Assembly: GCF_001306145.1 (NCBI RefSeq)
Contig: NZ_LGKO01000002.1
Span: forward strand, 372,001 to 436,000
DNA length: 64,000 bases
Reading direction: 5' to 3'
Source of the DNA: Thermanaerothrix daxensis
GTDB lineage: Bacteria > Chloroflexota > Anaerolineae > Anaerolineales > Anaerolineaceae
In this document: positions 51,238 through 64,000 of the stretch, piece by piece
Position numbering within the stretch: position 1 is the stretch's first letter
How the letters are laid out: every line of letters starts with the position of its first letter
Translations under genes and position numbers: made by a program
The notes under the pieces: generated by a model
The model's input: the letters and a program-made list of their open reading frames with translations, nothing else
Database searches by the model: none
What the model was told of the DNA's origin: nothing

Positions 51238-52245
51238 ATGAACTGGTCGGATAAAGTGGTGTTGGTTACCGGAGGAACGGGATCCTTTGGACGCAAATTT
51301 GTCCAGGTGATGCTGGAGGAGTACCATCCAGCCAAAATCATCGTTTTCAGCCGGGATGAACTCAAGCAGCATGAAATGCGTGTGAGCGGATTTGATCACC
51401 CCTCACTGCGCTATTTTATTGGCGATGTGCGCGATTTACAGCGTTTGCGCCGTGCCTTTGAGGGTGTGCACATTGTAGTACATGCCGCGGCGCTTAAGCA
51501 GGTGCCAGCGTGTGAATACAACCCGATGGAGGCGATCAAGACCAATATCCTGGGGAGCAGCAATGTCATTGAGGCGGCCCTGGATGCTGGTGTGGAGCGC
51601 GTGATTGCTCTGAGCACAGATAAGGCCGTCAACCCGGTTAATCTCTATGGGGCTACCAAACTGGCGGCAGAGAAACTATTCGTGCAGAGCAATGCTTATG
51701 CGGGTGGAAAAGCAACCCGCTTTAGTTGCGTGCGCTATGGGAATGTGGTGGGCAGCCGTGGTAGCGTGGTGCCGGTGTTCTTGCGCCAGCGTGAGAGCGG
51801 TGTGCTCACCATTACCGATGAGCGCATGACGCGCTTCTGGATTTCGCTGGATCAGGGTGTTCGCTTCGTCATCCATTGCCTGGAACAGATGATGGGTGGT
51901 GAGGTGTTTGTGCCCAAAATCCCAAGCATGCGGGTGATGGACCTGGCACGGGCCATTGCTCCTGAAGCGCGACTGGAAATCATCGGAATTCGGCCCGGCG
52001 AGAAATTGCACGAGGTGCTGATTTCAGAAGATGAAGCCCGTTCGACGGTCGAACTTGAGCACATGTATGTGGTGCAGCCCGTAGAGGCTTTCTGGTTTGG
52101 TCGCAAATGGGAAGGGCGGGGTAAGTCCTTACCGGATGGCTTTCGTTACGCCAGCAATACCAATGAGGCATGGCTGACGATTGAGGAATTGCGGCAGATG
52201 ATTGCCCCCATTGAGGCGGAATACTTGCAGGGTAAACTGCTATGA
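51238..52245 (+). CDS. UDP-N-acetylglucosamine 4,6-dehydratase (PseB/CapD-like)
   Basis: 335 residues. NADP loop VTGGTGSFGRKF, then FSRDELKQHEM, HAAALKQVPACEYNP and the STDKAVNPVNLYGATK signature of the PseB/FlaA1 and CapD dehydratases, followed by RYGNVVGSRGSVVP and ITDERMTRFWI. PseB proteins form UDP-4-keto-6-deoxy-L-AltNAc by inverting C5. It is the first step of pseudaminic acid and also of several 6-deoxyhexosamines (WbjB/CapE). The next gene starts by ATGA overlap. Confidence 0.9.
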   Translation: MNWSDKVVLVTGGTGSFGRKFVQVMLEEYHPAKIIVFSRDELKQHEMRVSGFDHPSLRYFIGDVRDLQRLRRAFEGVHIVVHAAALKQVPACEYNPMEAIKTNILGSSNVIEAALDAGVERVIALSTDKAVNPVNLYGATKLAAEKLFVQSNAYAGGKATRFSCVRYGNVVGSRGSVVPVFLRQRESGVLTITDERMTRFWISLDQGVRFVIHCLEQMMGGEVFVPKIPSMRVMDLARAIAPEARLEIIGIRPGEKLHEVLISEDEARSTVELEHMYVVQPVEAFWFGRKWEGRGKSLPDGFRYASNTNEAWLTIEELRQMIAPIEAEYLQGKLL

Positions 52246-53177
52246 AACACTGGTTGGTCACCGGGGCGAGTGGGTTATTGGGCTTGAACTTTGCCCTGCA
52301 TTTTGCCTCGCGCTTTCATATCACTGGTGTGGTCAATCACCATCCCTTACGTCATCCCCCTTTTGAGGTGGTTTCGGCGGATTTGACTCGCCCGGAGGCG
52401 GTAGAACGTTTGATTGAAGAAACCAAACCCGAAGTTGTGTTGCACACAGCTGCGCTGGCTAATCTGGATGTATGCGAGCAGCATCCCGAACTGGCCTGGC
52501 GCCTGAATGCCGAAGTGCCAGCCGAACTGGCGCGGGTTTGCGCTCAAAAGGGGATTCGGTTGGTGCATATATCAACCGATGCGGTCTTTGATGGGCAACG
52601 GGGCAACTACACCGAAGAGGATGTGCCTAATCCGCTGAGCACTTATGCGCGGAGCAAATTGGCCGCCGAGCAGTATGTGCTGCAAACCTATCCCCAAGCC
52701 CTGGTTGCGCGGGTAAATTTTTACGGGTGGAGTCTGCAGGGACGTCGGAGCCTGGCTGAGTTTTTCTTTTATAATTTGAGTCAGGGACACCGTGTAAACG
52801 GATTTGTAGATGTGATTTTCTGCCCACTGGAAGCAACCCAACTAAGCGAAATTCTGGTAACCCTGGTGGAACGCGATTGTCAGGGGCTGTATCACGTAGT
52901 CAGTCGTGAGTGTTTGAGCAAATATGCTTTTGGTTGTGCCCTGGCAGAGCGTTTTGGGCTGGATGCCAGCCTGATTACCCCCATCTCGGTTAATGACAGT
53001 CAACTCCGTGCACCACGCGCTCCGAATCTGACCCTTTCCACCGCCAAGTTGCAGGCAGTGGTGGGCGAAGTGCCAGGGCAGCGTGAGGGCCTGGAGCGGT
53101 TTTATCAGCATTATCGAGAGGGACGCGCCGCCTATCTAAGGGCGATGGCGCTTGATTTGGAACACCCACAGGCTTGA
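52242..53177 (+). CDS. RfbD-like SDR reductase (dTDP-4-dehydrorhamnose reductase family)
   Basis: 311 residues. The NAD(P) loop is VTGASGLLGLN. HTAALANLDVCEQHPELAWRLNAEVPAELA and STDAVFDGQRGNY are the RfbD signature, with TYARSKLAAEQ supplying the YxxxK. This family reduces 4-keto-6-deoxy sugars. Directly after the PseB-like gene it may reduce that product instead of amination by PseC, which is absent. The NeuB gene follows. Confidence 0.85.
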   Translation: MKHWLVTGASGLLGLNFALHFASRFHITGVVNHHPLRHPPFEVVSADLTRPEAVERLIEETKPEVVLHTAALANLDVCEQHPELAWRLNAEVPAELARVCAQKGIRLVHISTDAVFDGQRGNYTEEDVPNPLSTYARSKLAAEQYVLQTYPQALVARVNFYGWSLQGRRSLAEFFFYNLSQGHRVNGFVDVIFCPLEATQLSEILVTLVERDCQGLYHVVSRECLSKYAFGCALAERFGLDASLITPISVNDSQLRAPRAPNLTLSTAKLQAVVGEVPGQREGLERFYQHYREGRAAYLRAMALDLEHPQA

Positions 53178-53202
53178 TCCCTTTATGAAAGGAGTTGCTG
53201 CT

Positions 53203-54270
53203 ATGGATATTCGGATTGGTCAGCGTTGGATCGGGGATAATCATCCCACCTACTTTGTGGCGGATATTGCTGCTAACCATGATGGAAGCCTTGAGCGCGC
53301 CAAGGATCTGATTCGCCTGGCAAAAGAAGCCGGTGCCGATGCAGCGAAGTTTCAAAACTTCCATGCTCCTAAGATTGTCTCGGATTATGGCTTCCGCGCG
53401 TTGGGTTCTCAGCGATCCCATCAGGCGAAGTGGAAGAAATCCGTCTTTGAGGTCTATCAAGATGCTTCCATTCCACTGGAATGGACATACGAGTTAAAAG
53501 CCGTCTGCGATGAGGTGGGGATTGATTATTTCTCCGCCCCCTATGACTTTGAGTCAATTGACTTCCTGGAGCCCTTTATGCCGGTGTACAAAATTGGTTC
53601 CGGCGAGATTGATTGGCTGGAGGCGCTTGAACGGATTGCCAAAAAGGGGAAACCGGTCATGCTAGCAACAGGTGCAGCCAATATTGGGGAAGTCCAACGG
53701 GCGGTGCATACCATTCTGAAATACAATTCGCAATTGGTGTTAATGCAGTGTAATACGAACTATACCGGTAGCCGCGAGAATTTCAAGTACGTTAATTTGA
53801 ATGTCTTGAAGACCTATCGGGTGATGTTCCCAGAGGTGGTTTTGGGGCTTTCTGATCACACGCCGGGCCATGCGGCCGTATTGGGCGCAGTAGCGTTGGG
53901 GGCACGGGTGATTGAGAAGCATTTTACTGATGATAATACCCGCGAGGGCCCAGACCATCCGTTCTCATTGACTCCCGCAACTTGGCGTGAGATGGTGGAG
54001 CGCACGCGTGAACTGGAGTGGGCACTGGGATCAGCGGATAAGGTGGTCACCGAAAACGAACGCGAGACGGTCATCCTGCAGCGCCGCTGCCTGCGTGCCG
54101 CTCGCGACATCAAAGCCGGCGAAGTCATCACCCGCGAAATGATTGATGTGCTACGGCCGGCTACGCCGGGTGCTATTCTGCCTCCGGAGATTGATCGCGT
54201 GATTGGAACGCGCGCGCTGGTGGATATTCCTTACGGTAAAGAACTGCGCTGGACGGATCTGGGAAGTTAA
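53203..54270 (+). CDS. NeuB/PseI-like sialic acid synthase
   Basis: 355 residues from ATG 53203, eight bases after AAAGGAG. NeuB pattern: VADIAANHDGSLERAKDLI, KFQNF, SAPYDF, KIGSGEIDWLEAL, KPVMLATGAAN, GLSDHTPGH and EKHFTDDNTREGPDHPFSL. A C-terminal antifreeze-like SAF domain starts at about 295 (RDIKAGEVI). NeuB enzymes condense phosphoenolpyruvate with an N-acetylhexosamine to a nonulosonic acid. Closest to the SpsE/PseI kind. The acceptor may be the product of the two preceding genes. Confidence 0.9.
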   Translation: MDIRIGQRWIGDNHPTYFVADIAANHDGSLERAKDLIRLAKEAGADAAKFQNFHAPKIVSDYGFRALGSQRSHQAKWKKSVFEVYQDASIPLEWTYELKAVCDEVGIDYFSAPYDFESIDFLEPFMPVYKIGSGEIDWLEALERIAKKGKPVMLATGAANIGEVQRAVHTILKYNSQLVLMQCNTNYTGSRENFKYVNLNVLKTYRVMFPEVVLGLSDHTPGHAAVLGAVALGARVIEKHFTDDNTREGPDHPFSLTPATWREMVERTRELEWALGSADKVVTENERETVILQRRCLRAARDIKAGEVITREMIDVLRPATPGAILPPEIDRVIGTRALVDIPYGKELRWTDLGS

Positions 54271-55389
54271 GTGGCTCGCGTTCTCTACTTTAGCCGTGAT
54301 TATACGCCGCACGACCATCGCTTCCTCTCGGCGCTGGCTTCCACTTCCCATCAAATTTACTACCTGCGTCTGGAGCGGGGGCCGCGCCAGTTGGAGGAAC
54401 GGCCATTGCCGGAGGGTGTTACCTATGTTCAGTGGGCGGGTGGGCTGCAGCCTTTCACCTGGATGAGTCTACCCCGGCTTCTACGTGAGTTCCGGCGTGT
54501 CCTAGACGAGGTTAAGCCGGATCTGGTTCATGCTGGTCCTATACAATCTGCGGCTTTCCTGGCGGCGCTGAGCGGTTTCCAGCCTCTGGTAATAATGTCG
54601 TGGGGCTCTGATTTGCTGCGGGATGCCAACCGCAATCGTTGGTGGCGCTGGGTCACGGCAGCTGCGCTGCGCCGTGCTACCGTTCTGGTGGGAGATTGCC
54701 GTGCCGTTCAGGTAGCGGCTCAGGCTTTTGGCGTGCCTGCCGAACGCATCATCCTTTTTCCCTGGGGGGTGGACTTAACCCATTTTAGTCCCGGGGAGGA
54801 TGGTGGGCTGCGTGCACGCCGTGGCTGGCAAGAGGCTTTCACCTTGCTTTCGTTGCGCTCCTGGGAACCCATTTACGGGGTGGATGTTGTGGTGCGGGCT
54901 TTTGCGGAAGCCGCACGAGAACTGCCCGACCTGCGCCTCTTTCTACTGGGCGGGGGTTCGCAGGCTCCATTGATCCAAAAACTGCTTTATGAGAATGATC
55001 TTCTGGATCGAGTTTACCTGGGAGGCCAGGTGGGATACGAGCGCCTGCCGTCCTTCTATCGGGCAGCGGATGTGTATATCAGCGCTTCACACAGCGATGG
55101 TTCTTCGGTTTCGCTGTTAGAGGCCCTGGCCTGCGGTCTGCCCGCGCTGGTTTCAGATATTCCAGGTAACCGTGAGTGGATCGTGCCTGGGGTGCATGGG
55201 TGGCTCTTCCCAGATGGAGATGTGCATGCGCTAGCCGAAACCATCCGTCAGGTGTATGCCCAACGGGAGGCCCTGGCGGAAATTCGCCGTCAGGCACGTT
55301 TTCTGGCCGAGGAGCGGGCCAATTGGAATAAAAACTTTGCCCGATTGCTCCAGGCTTATGATCTGGCCTGGCAGATTGCAGCGAGGTGA
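54271..55389 (+). CDS. family 4 glycosyltransferase
   Basis: 372 residues from GTG 54271, which directly follows the NeuB stop. GT-B folds: DLVHAGPIQSAAFLAAL and MSWGSDLLRDANR in the first half; the second half has LRLFLLGGGSQAPLI, VYLGGQVGYERLPSFYRAADVYISAS and DGSSVSLLEALACGLPALV, containing the EX7E-type retaining motif. It adds one sugar to the polymer unit. The donor is unknown. Confidence 0.88.
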   Translation: MARVLYFSRDYTPHDHRFLSALASTSHQIYYLRLERGPRQLEERPLPEGVTYVQWAGGLQPFTWMSLPRLLREFRRVLDEVKPDLVHAGPIQSAAFLAALSGFQPLVIMSWGSDLLRDANRNRWWRWVTAAALRRATVLVGDCRAVQVAAQAFGVPAERIILFPWGVDLTHFSPGEDGGLRARRGWQEAFTLLSLRSWEPIYGVDVVVRAFAEAARELPDLRLFLLGGGSQAPLIQKLLYENDLLDRVYLGGQVGYERLPSFYRAADVYISASHSDGSSVSLLEALACGLPALVSDIPGNREWIVPGVHGWLFPDGDVHALAETIRQVYAQREALAEIRRQARFLAEERANWNKNFARLLQAYDLAWQIAAR

Positions 55390-55391
55390 GA

Positions 55392-56201
55392 ATGTCGGAT
55401 GAGGCGGCTTTCAACGTTGTGGCCATCCTTCAGGCGCGCATGAGCTCCAGCCGCCTGCCGGGTAAAGTGTTGATGGATCTGGTTGGGCGGCCAATATTGG
55501 TCTGGGGGGTGGAACGCACCCGACGGGCGCGCCGGGTCAACCAAGTCGTTGTAGCCACCACGGTGGACCCTGCGGATGAACCGATCGTCTTTTTATGCCA
55601 GGAACGGGGCTATCCGTGGTGGCGCGGGCATCCTTACGATGTGCTGGATCGTTTCTACCAGGCGGCACGTCATTTTAAGGCGGATATCGTTGTGCGGGTG
55701 ACGGCGGATTGCCCATTAATTGATCCGGGTTTGATTGATGCGACAGTAGAGGCCTTGCTGCGGGAAAAGGCAGACTTCGCGGCTAATCGCCTGCCCCCGC
55801 CGTGGCAGCGTACCTATCCGATTGGTTTGGATGTAGAAGTTTGCACCTTTGCTGTCCTGGAGCGCGCCTGGCGCGAAGCTCAGGCACCACATCATCGTGA
55901 ACATGTCATGCCTTACCTCTATGAGGTCCCTGGACGTTTCCGTACGGTGGTCCTGGATGCGGACGCCGATTATGGCCAGGTGCGCTGGACAGTAGATACC
56001 CCCCAGGACCTGGAAGCGGTGCGCCAATTGGTGATATTACTGGGTGGGCGGGATGATTTCACCTGGCGCGAAGCCCTGGCCGTCTGGCAGGCTCACCCCG
56101 AATTAGCAGCACTGAATGCGCGGGTCAACCACCATTCTTACAAGGATGTAGATGCTCGCTTTAATTCCGGACGTGCGTCCCAGGGGGACAATTCGCTGTG
56201 A
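55392..56201 (+). CDS. SpsF-like cytidylyltransferase
   Basis: 269 residues from ATG 55392. The nucleotidyltransferase core begins ILQARMSSSRLPGKVLMDLVGRPIL, then VVVATTVDPADEP, RVTADCPLIDPGLID and later EHVMPYLYE and VRWTVDTPQDLEAV. SpsF and related proteins resemble CMP-sialic acid synthetases and occur next to NeuB-like (SpsE) genes. It probably activates the acid made by the NeuB-like enzyme with CTP. The start is 2 bases after the GT4 stop. Confidence 0.85.
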   Translation: MSDEAAFNVVAILQARMSSSRLPGKVLMDLVGRPILVWGVERTRRARRVNQVVVATTVDPADEPIVFLCQERGYPWWRGHPYDVLDRFYQAARHFKADIVVRVTADCPLIDPGLIDATVEALLREKADFAANRLPPPWQRTYPIGLDVEVCTFAVLERAWREAQAPHHREHVMPYLYEVPGRFRTVVLDADADYGQVRWTVDTPQDLEAVRQLVILLGGRDDFTWREALAVWQAHPELAALNARVNHHSYKDVDARFNSGRASQGDNSL

Positions 56202-59368: not shown

Positions 59369-60142
59369 ATGAAGCGTCTTGCCTGGTTATTTCTCAGTGT
59401 TGTTTCGTTTTTTCTAATGGCGGCACTCTGGCCGTTGCCCTCGGCACGCCCATGGGCACAGGTGAGTTACGCTACCCCGACGGCTTTGCCCGATGGGCGT
59501 ATTTTGTATGTTGTTCAACCTCAGGATACTTGCATTCGAATTTCACTGCTCACCGGGGTATCTATTGATGATCTGCGTTTGTTAAACGGGTTGGATGCGA
59601 ACTGCACCCTGCGCGAGGGGCAAAGCCTTTTGCTGGGTACGGTTGCGCCCACCCCCACACCCTTTGGGCCCACAGAAACGCCCACACCCCTTTTGCCTTC
59701 TCCTACTCCTTTCCAGGGGAATGGACGGATTTGTGTTTTCCTTTTCAATGACATTAACGGGAACGCCTTGGTGGAGGAGGGGGAGTCGGGAATTGCCGGG
59801 GGGGCAATTAGCGTCACCGATCGCCTGGGAAGGATCTCCCGTGAGGGGGTTAGCCAGAGCGGAACCGACCCGGTGTGTTTCGAGGATCTTCCCGAGGGAG
59901 ACTACAATATCAGCGTGGCCGTGCCGGAAGACTATAACCCAACGACCCGCATGAACTACGCTCTGACCTTGCGTGCAGGTGATACCTCTACTCTGGACTT
60001 CGGGGCCCAGTTGAGCTCGCGTGCGCAACCCTCAGATGTTGCGGGGACGCAGCGCTCCCCGCTCCTTGCCATCCTAGGGGCCGTGCTACTGCTTTTCGGG
60101 GTAGGACTGGGGCTCTACGCGCGTTTCATAATGCGCCGTTGA
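59369..60142 (+). CDS. LysM-domain surface protein with SdrD B-like domain and C-terminal anchor helix
   Basis: 257 residues from ATG 59369 (first residues MKRLAWLFLS form the signal peptide). A LysM module follows (VVQPQDTCIRISLLTGVSIDDLRLLNGLD). The Pro/Thr-rich linker leads to a prealbumin-like SdrD_B type domain (RICVFLFNDINGNALVEEGESGIAGGAISV), which usually binds Ca2+. A last hydrophobic segment near the C-terminus (~232-250) ends with RFIMRR, which would anchor the protein. It is probably exposed on the cell surface. The 3' end overlaps the LysR gene by 57 bases. Confidence 0.8.
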   Translation: MKRLAWLFLSVVSFFLMAALWPLPSARPWAQVSYATPTALPDGRILYVVQPQDTCIRISLLTGVSIDDLRLLNGLDANCTLREGQSLLLGTVAPTPTPFGPTETPTPLLPSPTPFQGNGRICVFLFNDINGNALVEEGESGIAGGAISVTDRLGRISREGVSQSGTDPVCFEDLPEGDYNISVAVPEDYNPTTRMNYALTLRAGDTSTLDFGAQLSSRAQPSDVAGTQRSPLLAILGAVLLLFGVGLGLYARFIMRR

Positions 60143-61084
60143 ACGTTCCTCACACAACCCTCTTGCGGGAATTTGATCGTTTAGCATTTCGGGAGTGATT
60201 TGGGCCAGGAAATTCCAGAAAGCCTCCTGAGCGCTGCCAAGAGGATGGAGACGGTGGCGGCAGAAGAAAATCTCTTCCACTAAATCCACGTCGCGGATAC
60301 GTACAATAGCGACTTTTCCTTTTCCGACGTGGTCCACTGCAGATTGGGGGACAAAGCCCACACCAATTCCTTTCTCCACCGCAATCACAATGGCTTCAGA
60401 ATTCCCCAGGGTCAGTACGATTCGGAGGTCATGGATGTTAAGCCCTCGCTTCGCCAGAGCATTGTGGACAACCCGGTAGGTACCTGCACTTTCTTCGCGC
60501 ATGATAAAACACTCGCCCAGCAGGTCGTCCAGGGAAACCTCACGTTGTGCTGCCCAGGGATGATCAAGGGGGGCAATAAGTAGCACGGGTTCGTGGTAGA
60601 ACGGGCGAAATTCGATATGGCGGTCCAATTCATCAAAACTGCTTGAAAAGGAAAAATCCACCTCGCCTTTGCGTAGCATTTCCAGCGCCATGGCACGAGG
60701 AGTAACGTGAACAGTGGCTTGAACGCGGGGATGCTGAGCCATGAAACGCCCCAGGATTATGGGCAACATGTATTTACCTGGGGTAGTACTGCATCCAATG
60801 GTCAGGTGGCCAATAATCTCGCCGCGCAGGCTTTGCATGAGTTCCTCGGCGCGCGAGTGGACGAGCAGAATTTGCCGTGCCAGTGGCACCAAGGCCATCC
60901 CGGCTTCGCTCAGGGCCATTTTGCGCCCTTTACGGATAAACAGGGGAACCCCCAGTCGGCTTTCGAGTTGGTGGATGTGTTGGGTAATTGAAGGCTGGGA
61001 AAGTCCGAGTTTCTCAGCAGCGCGCGAGAAGTTAAGAGTCTCGGCAGCGGTCAGAAAAACCTGAAGTTGATAGGGATTCAGCAT
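60086..61084 (-). CDS. LysR family transcriptional regulator
   Basis: 332 residues from ATG 61084 after GGAGG. The N-terminal HTH has LQVFLTAAETLNFSRAAEKLGLSQPSITQHIHQLESRLGVPLFIRKGRKMALSEAG; the inducer-binding domain includes LTIGCSTTPGKYMLP. It resembles CbbR/CysB-like regulators. The gene is divergent from the multihaem cytochrome, so it probably controls it. The C-terminal ~25 residues lie in an overlap with the convergent surface protein gene and may be a non-conserved extension. Confidence 0.9.
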   Translation of the reverse strand: MLNPYQLQVFLTAAETLNFSRAAEKLGLSQPSITQHIHQLESRLGVPLFIRKGRKMALSEAGMALVPLARQILLVHSRAEELMQSLRGEIIGHLTIGCSTTPGKYMLPIILGRFMAQHPRVQATVHVTPRAMALEMLRKGEVDFSFSSSFDELDRHIEFRPFYHEPVLLIAPLDHPWAAQREVSLDDLLGECFIMREESAGTYRVVHNALAKRGLNIHDLRIVLTLGNSEAIVIAVEKGIGVGFVPQSAVDHVGKGKVAIVRIRDVDLVEEIFFCRHRLHPLGSAQEAFWNFLAQITPEMLNDQIPARGLCEERSTAHYETRVEPQSYPEKQ

Positions 61085-61209: not shown

Positions 61210-61249
61210 GAGTGGAAATGAGAATTTGATTGAACCAGGAGAATAGATT

Positions 61250-61486
61250 ATGCGGCGGGTAGGGATGCTTTTGCTTATCCTTGGTGTGGGTGTGTTCCTG
61301 GGAGCGTGTGCTTCGCAGGGGATATCCACGCCCACCCCGGTGCCGACGGCACCTTTGCCAGAGGCGGTGCTAACGCCTTTGAGTCAAACTGATTACTGCG
61401 TCCAATGCCATACAGACAAGGAGGCGCTCATTGAAACGGCAAAACCAGAGGAGAAAGCTCCTAGTGAATCTGAAGGGGTGGGTTGA
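61250..61486 (+). CDS. lipoprotein N-terminal part of a multihaem cytochrome c (ends at in-frame UGA)
   Basis: 78 residues with AGGAGA upstream. Signal peptide with lipobox LGAC (Cys20), a Pro/Thr linker and one haem motif CVQCH (50-54), then EEKAPSESEGVG and a TGA at 61484-61486. The next ten haem motifs follow in the same frame after that stop, so this looks like the beginning of one protein. By itself, a secreted one-haem lipoprotein is possible but unusual. Confidence 0.75.
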   Translation: MRRVGMLLLILGVGVFLGACASQGISTPTPVPTAPLPEAVLTPLSQTDYCVQCHTDKEALIETAKPEEKAPSESEGVG

Positions 61487-61495
61487 GGGGGCGAG

Positions 61496-62599
61496 GTGGC
61501 TCCGTTGGAGCCTTGGGAGAAAGTGCTGATCAGTGCTGATTTCACTCAGAGCATTCATGGGCGTGCCGGCTGTGTTGCCTGTCATCGCGGCCAGCAATCC
61601 CCTGATAAGGACACGGCGCATGTAGGATTGATCCCTGATCCCAGCCAGGATGCACAGCGCGTTTGTGGAGTTTGCCACGGCGAAATTGTGGATGGGTTTG
61701 GCACCAGTCTGCATGCCTCATTGCAGGGCTATCGCACGATTGTGTACTCACGCAGTGTCCCCGAAAATCATCCGGCATTGGACACCGCCATGCAGAATCA
61801 CTGTTTGTCGTGTCATACCACATGTGGTGATTGCCATATCAGTCAGCCCAAGCCAGTGGGTGGGGGGTTGTTAAACGGCCATAACGTGGAGAAGACGCCC
61901 TCAATGACGCGAGTTTGTACGGCGTGTCATGGTAGCCGTGTTGGTGCGGAGTACTTGGGTAAGCATGAGGGAATCCCTGGAGATGTGCATTTCCGGGAAG
62001 GGCGCATGAATTGTATGGCTTGCCATGCGGGTACCGATTTACATGCAGCCGAGGGGGATGCGGCAAAGCATCGCTACTGGGGGGATCAGCAGCCTGCTTG
62101 CAAGGATTGCCATGCTCAGGTTGGGCGGGCGGATGACCCTATTCCACAGCATACCATCCACGGAAATAAACTGGCCTGCCAGGTCTGTCACGCCGTGGAA
62201 TACACCAGTTGTGATGGGTGTCATGTTGCCATCAGCGAGAAGACAGGCAATCCATTCTTCAAGACTGAAGCCACTTACCTCTCGTTTGTAATTGGTCATA
62301 ATCCCTGGCCGAGTCGTGAACGTCCATATGAGTATGTGGTTTTACGCCACGCGCCGGTTGCTCCTACCACGTTTGAGTATTATGGTGAAAATTTGTTGCC
62401 CAATTTTGGGCTTTTGCCGACCTGGACCTATGCCACCCCGCACAACATCCAACGCCAAACGCCTCAAAACCGTTCTTGCAATACCTGTCATGGTAATGCA
62501 GCCCTCTTCCTGACCGCCGATAAGGTCAAATCTGAAGAATTGGAGGCCAATCGCCGAGTGATTGTTGAGAACATTCCTGCTGCAATTCCAATTCCCTAA
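61496..62599 (+). CDS. multihaem cytochrome c, main part (in frame with the preceding fragment)
   Basis: 367 residues from GTG 61496, in the same frame as the preceding fragment and separated by one TGA plus three codons. Ten CxxCH motifs: CVACH, CGVCH, CLSCH, CGDCH, CTACH, CMACH, CKDCH, CQVCH, CDGCH and CNTCH. It has no signal peptide of its own, yet c-type haem attachment takes place outside the membrane. That argues that the functional protein is the read-through product of ~449 residues and eleven haems. It resembles the octahaem/decahaem cytochromes that pass electrons to outer-surface acceptors. The rhodanese gene follows 27 bases later. Confidence 0.8.
   Translation: MAPLEPWEKVLISADFTQSIHGRAGCVACHRGQQSPDKDTAHVGLIPDPSQDAQRVCGVCHGEIVDGFGTSLHASLQGYRTIVYSRSVPENHPALDTAMQNHCLSCHTTCGDCHISQPKPVGGGLLNGHNVEKTPSMTRVCTACHGSRVGAEYLGKHEGIPGDVHFREGRMNCMACHAGTDLHAAEGDAAKHRYWGDQQPACKDCHAQVGRADDPIPQHTIHGNKLACQVCHAVEYTSCDGCHVAISEKTGNPFFKTEATYLSFVIGHNPWPSRERPYEYVVLRHAPVAPTTFEYYGENLLPNFGLLPTWTYATPHNIQRQTPQNRSCNTCHGNAALFLTADKVKSEELEANRRVIVENIPAAIPIP
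61498..61512 (+). promoter_or_regulatory. stem-loop just 3' of the in-frame UGA
   Basis: GGCTCC-GTT-GGAGCC, a 6-bp perfect stem with a three-base loop starting with G. The loop begins 18 bases after the UGA. It resembles the spacing of bacterial SECIS hairpins, but no broader match has been tested, and short G/C stems arise by chance. Confidence 0.35.
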
Positions 62600-62626: not shown

Positions 62627-64000
62627 ATGGTACAAAGTAAGCGAACACAATTCCTGATCCTGTTGGTTCTTCTCAGCCTGTTGCTGAATGCGTGTGCCAC
62701 CGCCGCGCCCACGCTTGCGCCAACAAACGAACCTGCTACAGCGCCAACACAGGTGCCTACAGCACTGCCTTCACCGACGGTTGAAGCCCAACCAGATGTT
62801 GTAAGCCTGTGGACTCAGTTAATTGCCGATTTACCGGCCGAAAAGGGTTTTGGCACGGTCAGCGCTGCCAAATTGAATGAGGAACTGGCTGACAAACCCC
62901 CTTTCTTGCTGGATGTGCGTGAAGCCGCAGAGATCGAGAAGGATGGTTATATTGAAGATGCGGTGCATATCCCGGTACGTGACGTTCTCAAGAACCTGGA
63001 CAAACTTCCGGCACAGGACCAGCCCATTGTGATTTATTGTGCCTCGGGTCATCGGGGGGCGCTGGTTCAGGCTGCGCTGAAATTGCTAGGTTATTCCAAT
63101 GTGCGTAACCTGGGAGGCGGTTTGGGGGCATGGAAGAAAGCCAATTTGCCTGTGGTTACCGGAAGCATGCCACCAGCACCAGCGGCTGGTACAGCCCCTG
63201 AGATTAAGGACCAGGCTCTCTACACTCTACTGGACGGCTTTCTAAGCAACCTGCCCGAGGGGTTCTATGCCATCAAGGCGGATAAATTGAACACCGACCT
63301 GATTGAAGGCAAAAAACTGGTGCTGGTAGATGTGCGCACGGCTAAAGAGTACGAAAATGACGGGCGTATTGCTGGTGCCATTAACCTGCCATTCAATGAG
63401 TTTATGTCCCATTTGGGAGAATTGCCCAAAGATGTGCCACTAGTCATTTATTGCGCATCAGGCCATCGGGGCGCCATCCTCATGATGGGCCTGCGTTTGT
63501 TGGGCTATGATGCGCTCAATCTGGCAGGCGGTTTGAATGCGTGGAAAGCTGCTCAATTGCCAGTTGAAGGCTGGGTGGATTGGAACGCCACCTGGAAAGA
63601 TTTTCTGAGCAATTTGCCCAAGGATTTCTACACCATCTCGGCTGCCGATCTTAATGCGGCTTTGGCTGACAAACCGCCTTTCTTACTGGATGTACGCGAG
63701 ACTGCAGAGTTAGAGAAAGAAGGGTATATCAAGGGGGCAGTTCATATTCCGGTGCGTGAGGTGCTCAAAAATCTGGACAAACTCCCAGCCCAAAATCAGC
63801 CCATTGTGATTTACTGCGCTTCCGGGCATCGCGGGGCTTTGGTGATGGCTGCGCTGCGTCTGTTGGGTTACAGTGAGGTGCGTAATCTTGGGGGTGGTCT
63901 GGGGGCGTGGAAGAAGGCAAATCTACCGGTGGAAACAGGCAGCCTGCCCGAACCACCCGTGCCCGGCACGGCTCCAGAGATCAAGAATCAGACTCTCTTC
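62627..64000 (+). CDS. lipoprotein with tandem rhodanese domains, 3' end beyond the window
   Basis: 458 codons from ATG 62627 (GGAGGAAAAG upstream) to the window edge without a stop. Signal peptide with lipobox LNAC (Cys23), a Pro/Thr/Ala linker and three rhodanese domains. Each has the same active loop CASGHRGA (Cys138, Cys276, Cys398) and LLDVR or LVDVR. Domains 1 and 3 are close to identical; domain 2 differs, and the linker after domain 3 restarts like the linker after domain 1. Rhodaneses carry persulfide sulfur; with the multihaem cytochrome it may be a surface sulfur-handling system. This link is an inference from neighbourhood. Confidence 0.9.
   Translation, partial: MVQSKRTQFLILLVLLSLLLNACATAAPTLAPTNEPATAPTQVPTALPSPTVEAQPDVVSLWTQLIADLPAEKGFGTVSAAKLNEELADKPPFLLDVREAAEIEKDGYIEDAVHIPVRDVLKNLDKLPAQDQPIVIYCASGHRGALVQAALKLLGYSNVRNLGGGLGAWKKANLPVVTGSMPPAPAAGTAPEIKDQALYTLLDGFLSNLPEGFYAIKADKLNTDLIEGKKLVLVDVRTAKEYENDGRIAGAINLPFNEFMSHLGELPKDVPLVIYCASGHRGAILMMGLRLLGYDALNLAGGLNAWKAAQLPVEGWVDWNATWKDFLSNLPKDFYTISAADLNAALADKPPFLLDVRETAELEKEGYIKGAVHIPVREVLKNLDKLPAQNQPIVIYCASGHRGALVMAALRLLGYSEVRNLGGGLGAWKKANLPVETGSLPEPPVPGTAPEIKNQTLF
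62830..64000 (+). repeat. 777-bp internal tandem repeat in the rhodanese gene
   Basis: Matching sequence recurs at an offset of 777 bases (259 codons); for example TGGCTGACAAACC starts at 62886 and at 63663. The first unit covers domains 1 and 2. The second unit begins near 63607 and is cut by the window. Confidence 0.8.

Follow-up and report, generated by a model that had tools for sequence, protein, structure and literature searches.

A predicted selenocysteine-containing eleven-haem cytochrome c of Chloroflexota and other phyla

Architecture of the gene and its predicted product

An in-frame UGA in an eleven-haem cytochrome gene of Thermanaerothrix daxensis (61484–61486) is predicted, with high confidence, to be decoded as selenocysteine 79; this prediction rests on sequence, without measurements of the protein or of its selenium. 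Dozens of related genomes show this codon together with the same RNA signal, so the cytochrome very probably represents, as far as sequence comparison can tell, a real selenoprotein family that is absent from the catalogues checked. In the proposed mechanism, SelB and tRNA-Sec would insert selenocysteine at the UGA as directed by a hairpin immediately downstream. The product would be a single extracytoplasmic selenoprotein, a cytochrome c lipoprotein carrying 11 haems, with Sec79 in a loop that is flanked by glycines (GxG-U-GG) and lies between haem motifs 1 and 2. Positions refer to the window, meaning the whole stretch of 64,000 nucleotides that was analyzed (G000:C1:372001-436000), taken from a host genome of 3.01 Mb; features lie on the plus strand unless stated otherwise.

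The gene spans 61250–62599 and comprises 449 codons plus a stop, with one internal UGA and 11 CxxCH haem motifs. A ribosome-binding-like site, AGGAG (61237–61241), can be read 5' of the ATG at 61250. The signal peptide (61250–61309) ends in the lipobox LGAC, the cysteine of which (Cys20, codon 61307–61309) is invariant in all 27 alignment rows. Haem motif 1, CVQCH (residues 50–54; 61397–61411), lies 5' of the UGA and has invariant Cys and His columns in the alignment. The UGA itself stands in the motif GVG-U-GG, after which the frame continues through GGG GGC GAG, a GTG at 61496, and haem motifs 2 to 11 (residues 108–414; 61571–62491; identified from sequence and alignment) to a TAA at 62597–62599. 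Cytochrome c7 and c3-type domains are recognized by Pfam in the read-through protein, and its best named homologues come from Chloroflexota/Anaerolineae MAGs. Ordinary ORF calling splits the same gene into a lipoprotein of 78 residues and a cytochrome that lacks a signal peptide.

An earlier note on this DNA had already placed the secretion signal, lipobox, and first CxxCH before the TGA, had counted ten further CxxCH motifs in the same frame with only GGG-GGC-GAG ahead of a GTG, and had described a 6-bp stem with a loop G 18 nt past the UGA. These readings are all confirmed from the sequence, the loop being GUU. Its remark that the UGA context is not a typical redox motif likewise stands: GxG-U-GG is neither a CxxU nor a UxxC motif, and it is conserved in the family.

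Conservation of the in-frame UGA

When 301 genomes of the order were searched with a profile (E ≤ 1e-30), 63 proved to contain the protein. Aligning homologues at the UGA site, a check that the earlier note had proposed, gives UGA in 58 of these 63 and Trp in two (L038 and L109), and inspection of the DNA of all 58 places the TGA at the identical site. The five genomes without TGA are G086, G603, G613, G601, and G079. No match row contains TAA or TAG but no TGA; three genomes (G038, G206, and G528) have an extra TAA or TAG in the match besides the TGA, and in TGA-bearing G626, the gene is otherwise split into two pieces. With the read-through protein as query, 17 of 101 related genomes matched, 14 of them with one in-frame TGA, the other three being G086, G079, and G049 (a 48-residue match, E 9.5e-5). 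A phylum sample of 400 genomes gave 13 matches, 12 with TGA and one (G130) without the loop. A separate collection provided 16 loci, three of which are contigs also present in the set of 101 relatives. Fifteen of the 16 have UGA at the same place, including five from Fidelibacterota (Neomarinimicrobiota) and one from a Spirochaetota MAG, and the sixteenth, from a Krumholzibacteriota MAG (L021), has Gln at the site.

Altogether, 70 distinct UGA contexts were collected, with 55 distinct 36-mers. In this set and in an earlier set of UGA loci read at the DNA level, the search pattern itself asked for glycine ahead of the UGA and for a loosely defined motif behind it; hence, the uniformity of the motif in these sets is partly given by construction. 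The TGA counts from the searches of 101, 400, and 301 genomes are free of that pattern. In one MAG (G123, 8% contamination), two divergent copies of the UGA cytochrome were observed (L081 and L084).

The surroundings of the codon also bear on whether the gene encodes two proteins instead of one, namely, a short lipoprotein with one haem that stops at the UGA and a cytochrome whose translation restarts at GTG 61496. A GTG occurs at this place in 65 of the 70 contexts, and in the window, GAGG directly precedes it. However, the codon is GCG in two contexts and GTA in one, which are not start codons, and CTG in another, and the last G of the GTG is a base of the hairpin. The downstream part has no signal peptide, and haem attachment to c-type cytochromes occurs outside the cytoplasm. 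Furthermore, the glycines on both sides of the UGA (76, 78, 80, and 81) are invariant or nearly so in the alignment. A restart at the GTG is, thus, very unlikely, and the selenocysteine reading of one continuous protein is retained.

The SECIS-type hairpin

The bacterial SECIS-type hairpin occupies 61498–61512, with the stem GGCUCC/GGAGCC closing the loop GUU. Folded alone (28 nt), it has a free energy of −10.3 kcal/mol, and in a 45-nt stretch of the window genome, the minimum-energy fold is a different pairing. Free-energy folding is, thus, weak support, and the reality of the hairpin rests on comparison. An Rfam scan of 221 bases around the UGA (E ≤ 10) returned no SECIS family; its six matches all scored far under their gathering scores.

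For the comparison, pairs were counted on the ungapped register since MAFFT misplaced the hairpin of the Spirochaetota locus (L017). Across a smaller set of 35 UGA loci (30 distinct 36-mers), standard pairs fill 146 of the 150 cells belonging to the five core pairs, whereas 2000 partner shuffles reached at most 141, and sliding the partners by 1 to 3 nt left 34–90 of 150. In the 55 distinct UGA sequences, 270 stem cells out of 275 are paired, against a mean of 255.0 and a maximum of 265 in 2000 partner shuffles, and all 55 share the loop GUU. The stems covary, with changes on both sides. Six distinct sequences (L017, L035, L081, L082, L084, and L128) have C-G in place of G-C at pair 16-28, and pair 17-27 is U-A in L018. 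In L035, L081, and L128, the swap at 16-28 is accompanied by an Ala-to-Pro and a Pro-to-Ala change, meaning that the stem is preserved while the peptide is altered. In the Spirochaetota stem, three of the five core pairs differ, and pairing in the same register is retained. Only five of the 55 distinct stems contain a mismatch, a single one each: three A.C and one U.C in Fidelibacterota and one A.C in L115.

Codon usage points to the same bases. The 19 Chloroflexota UGA rows contain 111 columns that are invariant in the protein and leave a choice of codon, of which only three are invariant at the codon level. These are Pro85 (CCG), Leu86 (TTG), and Glu87 (GAG), all within the hairpin; the chance of a given triple among 111 columns is 1/C(111,3) = 4.5e-6.

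Homologues that lack the UGA

No homologue was seen with Cys at the selenocysteine site, and therefore the usual Cys/Sec comparison is missing. Besides the Gln of L021, the UGA-less forms have Trp in L038 (from G086, with one residue lost) and in L109 (G603), and Phe in L110 (G613). The loop is absent from L111 (G601) and from two distant relatives, L040 (G079) and L083 (G130). In a 27-row tree, L038 falls into an 11-row group (support 93/97), the other ten rows of which have UGA, although the inner order of the group is not fully resolved. By inference, a 3-nt deletion could have turned UGA into UGG in L038.

Where the UGA is lost but the loop is kept, the hairpin has decayed in three of four cases, with three of five stem pairs remaining in L109, two in L110, and three in L021. 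The fourth case, L038, has a perfect stem (5/5 pairs, one of them compensated) despite the loss of its UGA. This retention reflects either a recent loss of selenocysteine or another role of the hairpin.

Selenocysteine machinery and alternative decodings

The earlier note had also named the sel genes as a check, and the host genome contains all of them: tRNA-Sec (76.9 bits; reported by ARAGORN as tRNA-SeC, anticodon tca), selA (532.9 bits), selB (342.6 bits), and selD (356.9 bits), the latter with an in-frame TGA of its own. That TGA (L054:1531) lies in what we take to be a SelD-like motif; it is followed by two GC-rich hairpins, neither of which has the GUU loop of the cytochrome. Within the order sample, selA is found in 246 of 301 genomes, divided into 56 of 58 UGA genomes versus 190 of 243 others (Fisher p 5e-4, assuming that the UGA and selA samples comprise the same 301 genomes), and it is present in all five of the UGA-less genomes. 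Since selenocysteine use is common in the order, the association is supportive and not decisive, and the presence of selA is weak evidence. Among individually checked genomes, selA matched in 28 of 30. In 12 further genomes, nine of them UGA-bearing, tRNA-Sec of at least 67 bits was found in 11. G230, a UGA genome of 86% completeness, has no clear tRNA-Sec, and two UGA genomes lack selA, namely, G066 (91% complete, tRNA-Sec present) and G652 (67% complete).

Read-through might also proceed without selenocysteine, be it by near-cognate insertion of Trp or another residue or by a code in which UGA is a sense codon, and the Trp in two homologues and the lack of a Cys homologue would fit such decoding. 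In the window, however, UGA behaves as an ordinary stop that ends 24 of the 40 long non-overlapping mechanical ORFs, the full selenocysteine gene set is present, and the conserved hairpin lies at SECIS distance. Phe, Gln, and deletion also occur at the site, so Trp is not required. Decoding of this kind is considered extremely improbable.

Finally, a lone TGG (Trp)-to-TGA mutation or base error that left a broken gene in one genome, a possibility that the earlier note had kept open and for which the TGG of L038 and L109 speaks, is as good as ruled out by the recurrence of the UGA in many assemblies of the order and in other phyla and by a hairpin conserved as RNA through covariation and codon freeze, the more so as L038 is grouped with ten UGA rows and could, by the deletion inferred above, derive from the UGA form. 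Selenocysteine read-through, which the same note had favored, is supported by the conserved UGA, the RNA-level conservation of the hairpin, and the sel gene set.

Gene neighborhood

Downstream of the cytochrome, a partner gene (62627–64000, running past the window to 64360; L044:6627-8360) encodes a lipoprotein with four rhodanese domains, as assigned by domain search and tblastn. Their active-site loops read CASGHRG three times and CKSGHRG once. By tblastn, a rhodanese gene adjoins 31 of the 33 assessable UGA loci, lying upstream in L081 and L082. The assessable loci are the 35 UGA loci without two at contig ends (L016 and L023); the adjacency figures, thus, cover these and the UGA-less loci but not the whole set of 70 contexts. 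L017 has no neighboring rhodanese, and none turned up beside L084 within its 1.5-kb flank. In the Spirochaetota locus L017, a ResB-type cytochrome c maturation gene follows the UGA copy. As for the UGA-less loci, none was found within the available flanks of L110, L111, and L021; L109 adjoins a single rhodanese domain and the L038 gene a short, perhaps frameshifted rhodanese (locus L068), so that in G086 a Trp variant, a perfect hairpin, and this short rhodanese occur together. In the five Fidelibacterota loci, the next genes encode a rhodanese protein (with two domains in L018), a protein of about 400 residues, for which no family was found in L020 at E ≤ 0.001, and more multihaem cytochromes.

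On the other side, a divergent LysR-type regulator (60086–61084, minus strand; domain search) belongs to the same cluster in 18 of 29 loci. Its best NCBIfam match is the selenium-metabolism LysR family NF040786, with 218 bits under a cut-off of 250. Genes for Fe-S, octahaem, and NrfD proteins occur in 8, 8, and 7 of the 29 loci, respectively; the Fe-S protein scores above the DsrO cut-off (207.5 versus 200), and the NrfD protein is QrcD/HmcC-like, under those cut-offs. One octahaem gene (L064:1274-2719) encodes a homologue of octahaem tetrathionate reductase (TIGR04315, 567 bits; 1sp3, E 8.8e-152), and its reading frame in L064 is open without a UGA. The same octahaem cluster is found in L066, and it lies near the selenocysteine cytochrome in two genomes that belong to a single family within the order. 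Farther away in the window (51238–56201), a surface-sugar cluster with Polysacc_synt_2 and RmlD-type enzymes, NeuB, a glycosyltransferase, and a cytidylyltransferase looks like one for nonulosonic acid biosynthesis.

Structural features and proposed function

Outside the haem motifs and the lipid-bearing Cys, Sec79 is the only Cys or Sec of the mature protein in 20 of 20 rows (19 Chloroflexota and the Spirochaetota sequence); the five Fidelibacterota rows have one additional Cys and a CxxxCH. Of the histidines outside the CxxCH motifs, eleven are either invariant or shared by at least 90% of rows. Both AlphaFold models reach only middling confidence (pLDDT 75.2 and 68.6) and contain no haems, so the surroundings of Sec79 are not shown by them. 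Foldseek gave no match for either model at E ≤ 0.001, and PHROGs gave none. Compared with solved structures, the N-terminal 160 positions matched only weakly (best E 0.0019), and the alignments shown cover haem regions of other cytochromes.

The best guess at function, a tentative inference, is a reductase that works outside the cytoplasm on sulfane sulfur or selenium compounds, in a respiratory or detoxifying role. With only one selenol standing between its rhodanese partners and the chain of haems, the protein may first accept sulfane sulfur or selenium and then reduce it. In this scheme, a persulfide or perselenide on the rhodanese would donate its sulfur or selenium to the selenolate; alternatively, the selenolate would attack an oxyanion or polysulfide directly. 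The haem chain would then deliver electrons, releasing sulfide or selenide. In some relatives within the order, the electrons may come from menaquinol via the NrfD/Fe-S/octahaem module.

Somewhat doubtful, though it cannot be set aside, is a role as an electron conduit only, with Sec79 ligating a haem or binding a metal or selenium and not acting as a catalyst. Eleven haem motifs in a lipoprotein and the multihaem neighbors would suit such a conduit, as would a Sec that stands alone without a resolving thiol. Against it, the eleven conserved histidines could, by inference, already provide each of the 11 haems with its second ligand, so that Sec need not be one, and the frequent rhodanese partner suggests chalcogen chemistry.

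Along the lines of the reductase proposal, Chloroflexota and Fidelibacterota might possess a selenium-dependent respiratory unit that has not been catalogued, again only as a possibility. In it, the selenocysteine eleven-haem cytochrome and a string of rhodanese domains would, outside the cytoplasm, reduce sulfane sulfur, polysulfide, or selenium oxyanions, the single selenol relaying the chalcogen that it receives from rhodanese to an active site wired by haems. This chemistry would be shared with the ExtH/ExtKL pair of Geobacter, homology to which is not demonstrated.

The family, present in 63 of 301 genomes sampled from one order, is large and crosses phyla. With its clear RNA signal, its frequent rhodanese partner, and no Cys version seen, it offers a handle on the role of selenium in haem-wired redox proteins; in the available portion of a review (PMC13188914), few selenocytochromes are listed. 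Split calling into a 78-residue lipoprotein and a signal-less cytochrome implies that such genes are easily misannotated.

Comparison with known systems

Octahaem tetrathionate reductase (TIGR04315; PDB 1sp3) has eight haems compared with the eleven of the window protein. Its Cys64 (alignment numbering) is located between haem motifs 1 and 2, as is Sec79, and presumably has an active-site role. 1sp3 is the top structural neighbor of both models (Z 8.8, rmsd 4.9, 266 residues; Z 6.1, rmsd 4.9, 216 residues), in a ranking among only 14 and 16 chains. This match suggests a reductase role, with the qualification that the models are moderately confident and that the alignments begin after Sec79. 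TIGR04315 (curated cut-off 375 bits) gave no match to the window protein at E ≤ 10 and matches one of 27 family members, with a best E of 2.8e-4. A kinship proposed by hhalign (E 2.6e-9) was rejected since unrelated multihaem neighbors gave 4.3e-10 and 1.7e-9. GSU2203 (NF041028) and DmsE (TIGR03508) show weak local haem-repeat matches of 30.6 and 31.9 bits, far under their cut-offs of 325 and 192.2, respectively, and NF041027 (GSU2204, the selenoprotein family of the GSU2203/GSU2204 pair) gave no match to the window protein at E ≤ 10.

The accessible part of the 2026 review (PMC13188914) tabulates 119 selenoprotein families or subfamilies, including ExtKL, the GSU2204 selenoprotein, and a TIGR04315 selenoprotein annotated in GenBank. 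As far as that part extends, no entry names an eleven-haem cytochrome with the present layout, and several entries give no motif. There, HgcB and UXX-star family 2 are listed with GVGU or GxGU as their motif; for both reasons, the motif alone cannot be called new. Literature searches, mostly judged from listings, found no paper on this cytochrome family; the word "cytochrome" is absent from the main text of PMC5029168 and PMC12013277, and the portion of PMC5736913 that was accessible describes Chloroflexi formate dehydrogenases with selenocysteine.

The closest system in kind is ExtKL of Geobacter, proposed as a selenocytochrome from a conserved TGA, with five N-terminal haem motifs, a C-terminal part without similarity, and no SECIS found, according to the available text of PMC1914089. 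Excerpts of PMC1914089 and PMC5877670 describe it as having no non-Sec homologues, and in those of the latter, its cluster includes the rhodanese gene extH and a link to selenite reduction is suggested. NF040886 (ExtKL) is not among the five NCBIfam matches of the window protein at E ≤ 10, although HMMER filters drop most weak matches, nor among the matches listed (25 of 44 families) for the other 26 members. A multihaem selenoprotein named MccSep, with a U325A mutant (PDB 9wt8-9wtc), is by inference probably ExtKL. It matches the family profile weakly (E 0.7) over chain residues 2–175, before U325, and a literature search on its name returned only unrelated work.

Both ExtKL and the window protein combine a UGA-encoded selenocysteine in a multihaem c-type cytochrome with a rhodanese in the same cluster and no Cys form seen. 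In contrast to the five N-terminal motifs of ExtKL, the window protein has one motif before and ten after its UGA; it also possesses a clear hairpin, whereas no SECIS is reported for ExtKL in the part of PMC1914089 at hand. With selenium incorporation predicted and function inferred, the window cytochrome is a new selenoprotein family, set apart from ExtKL by curated model and layout and akin to it in kind.
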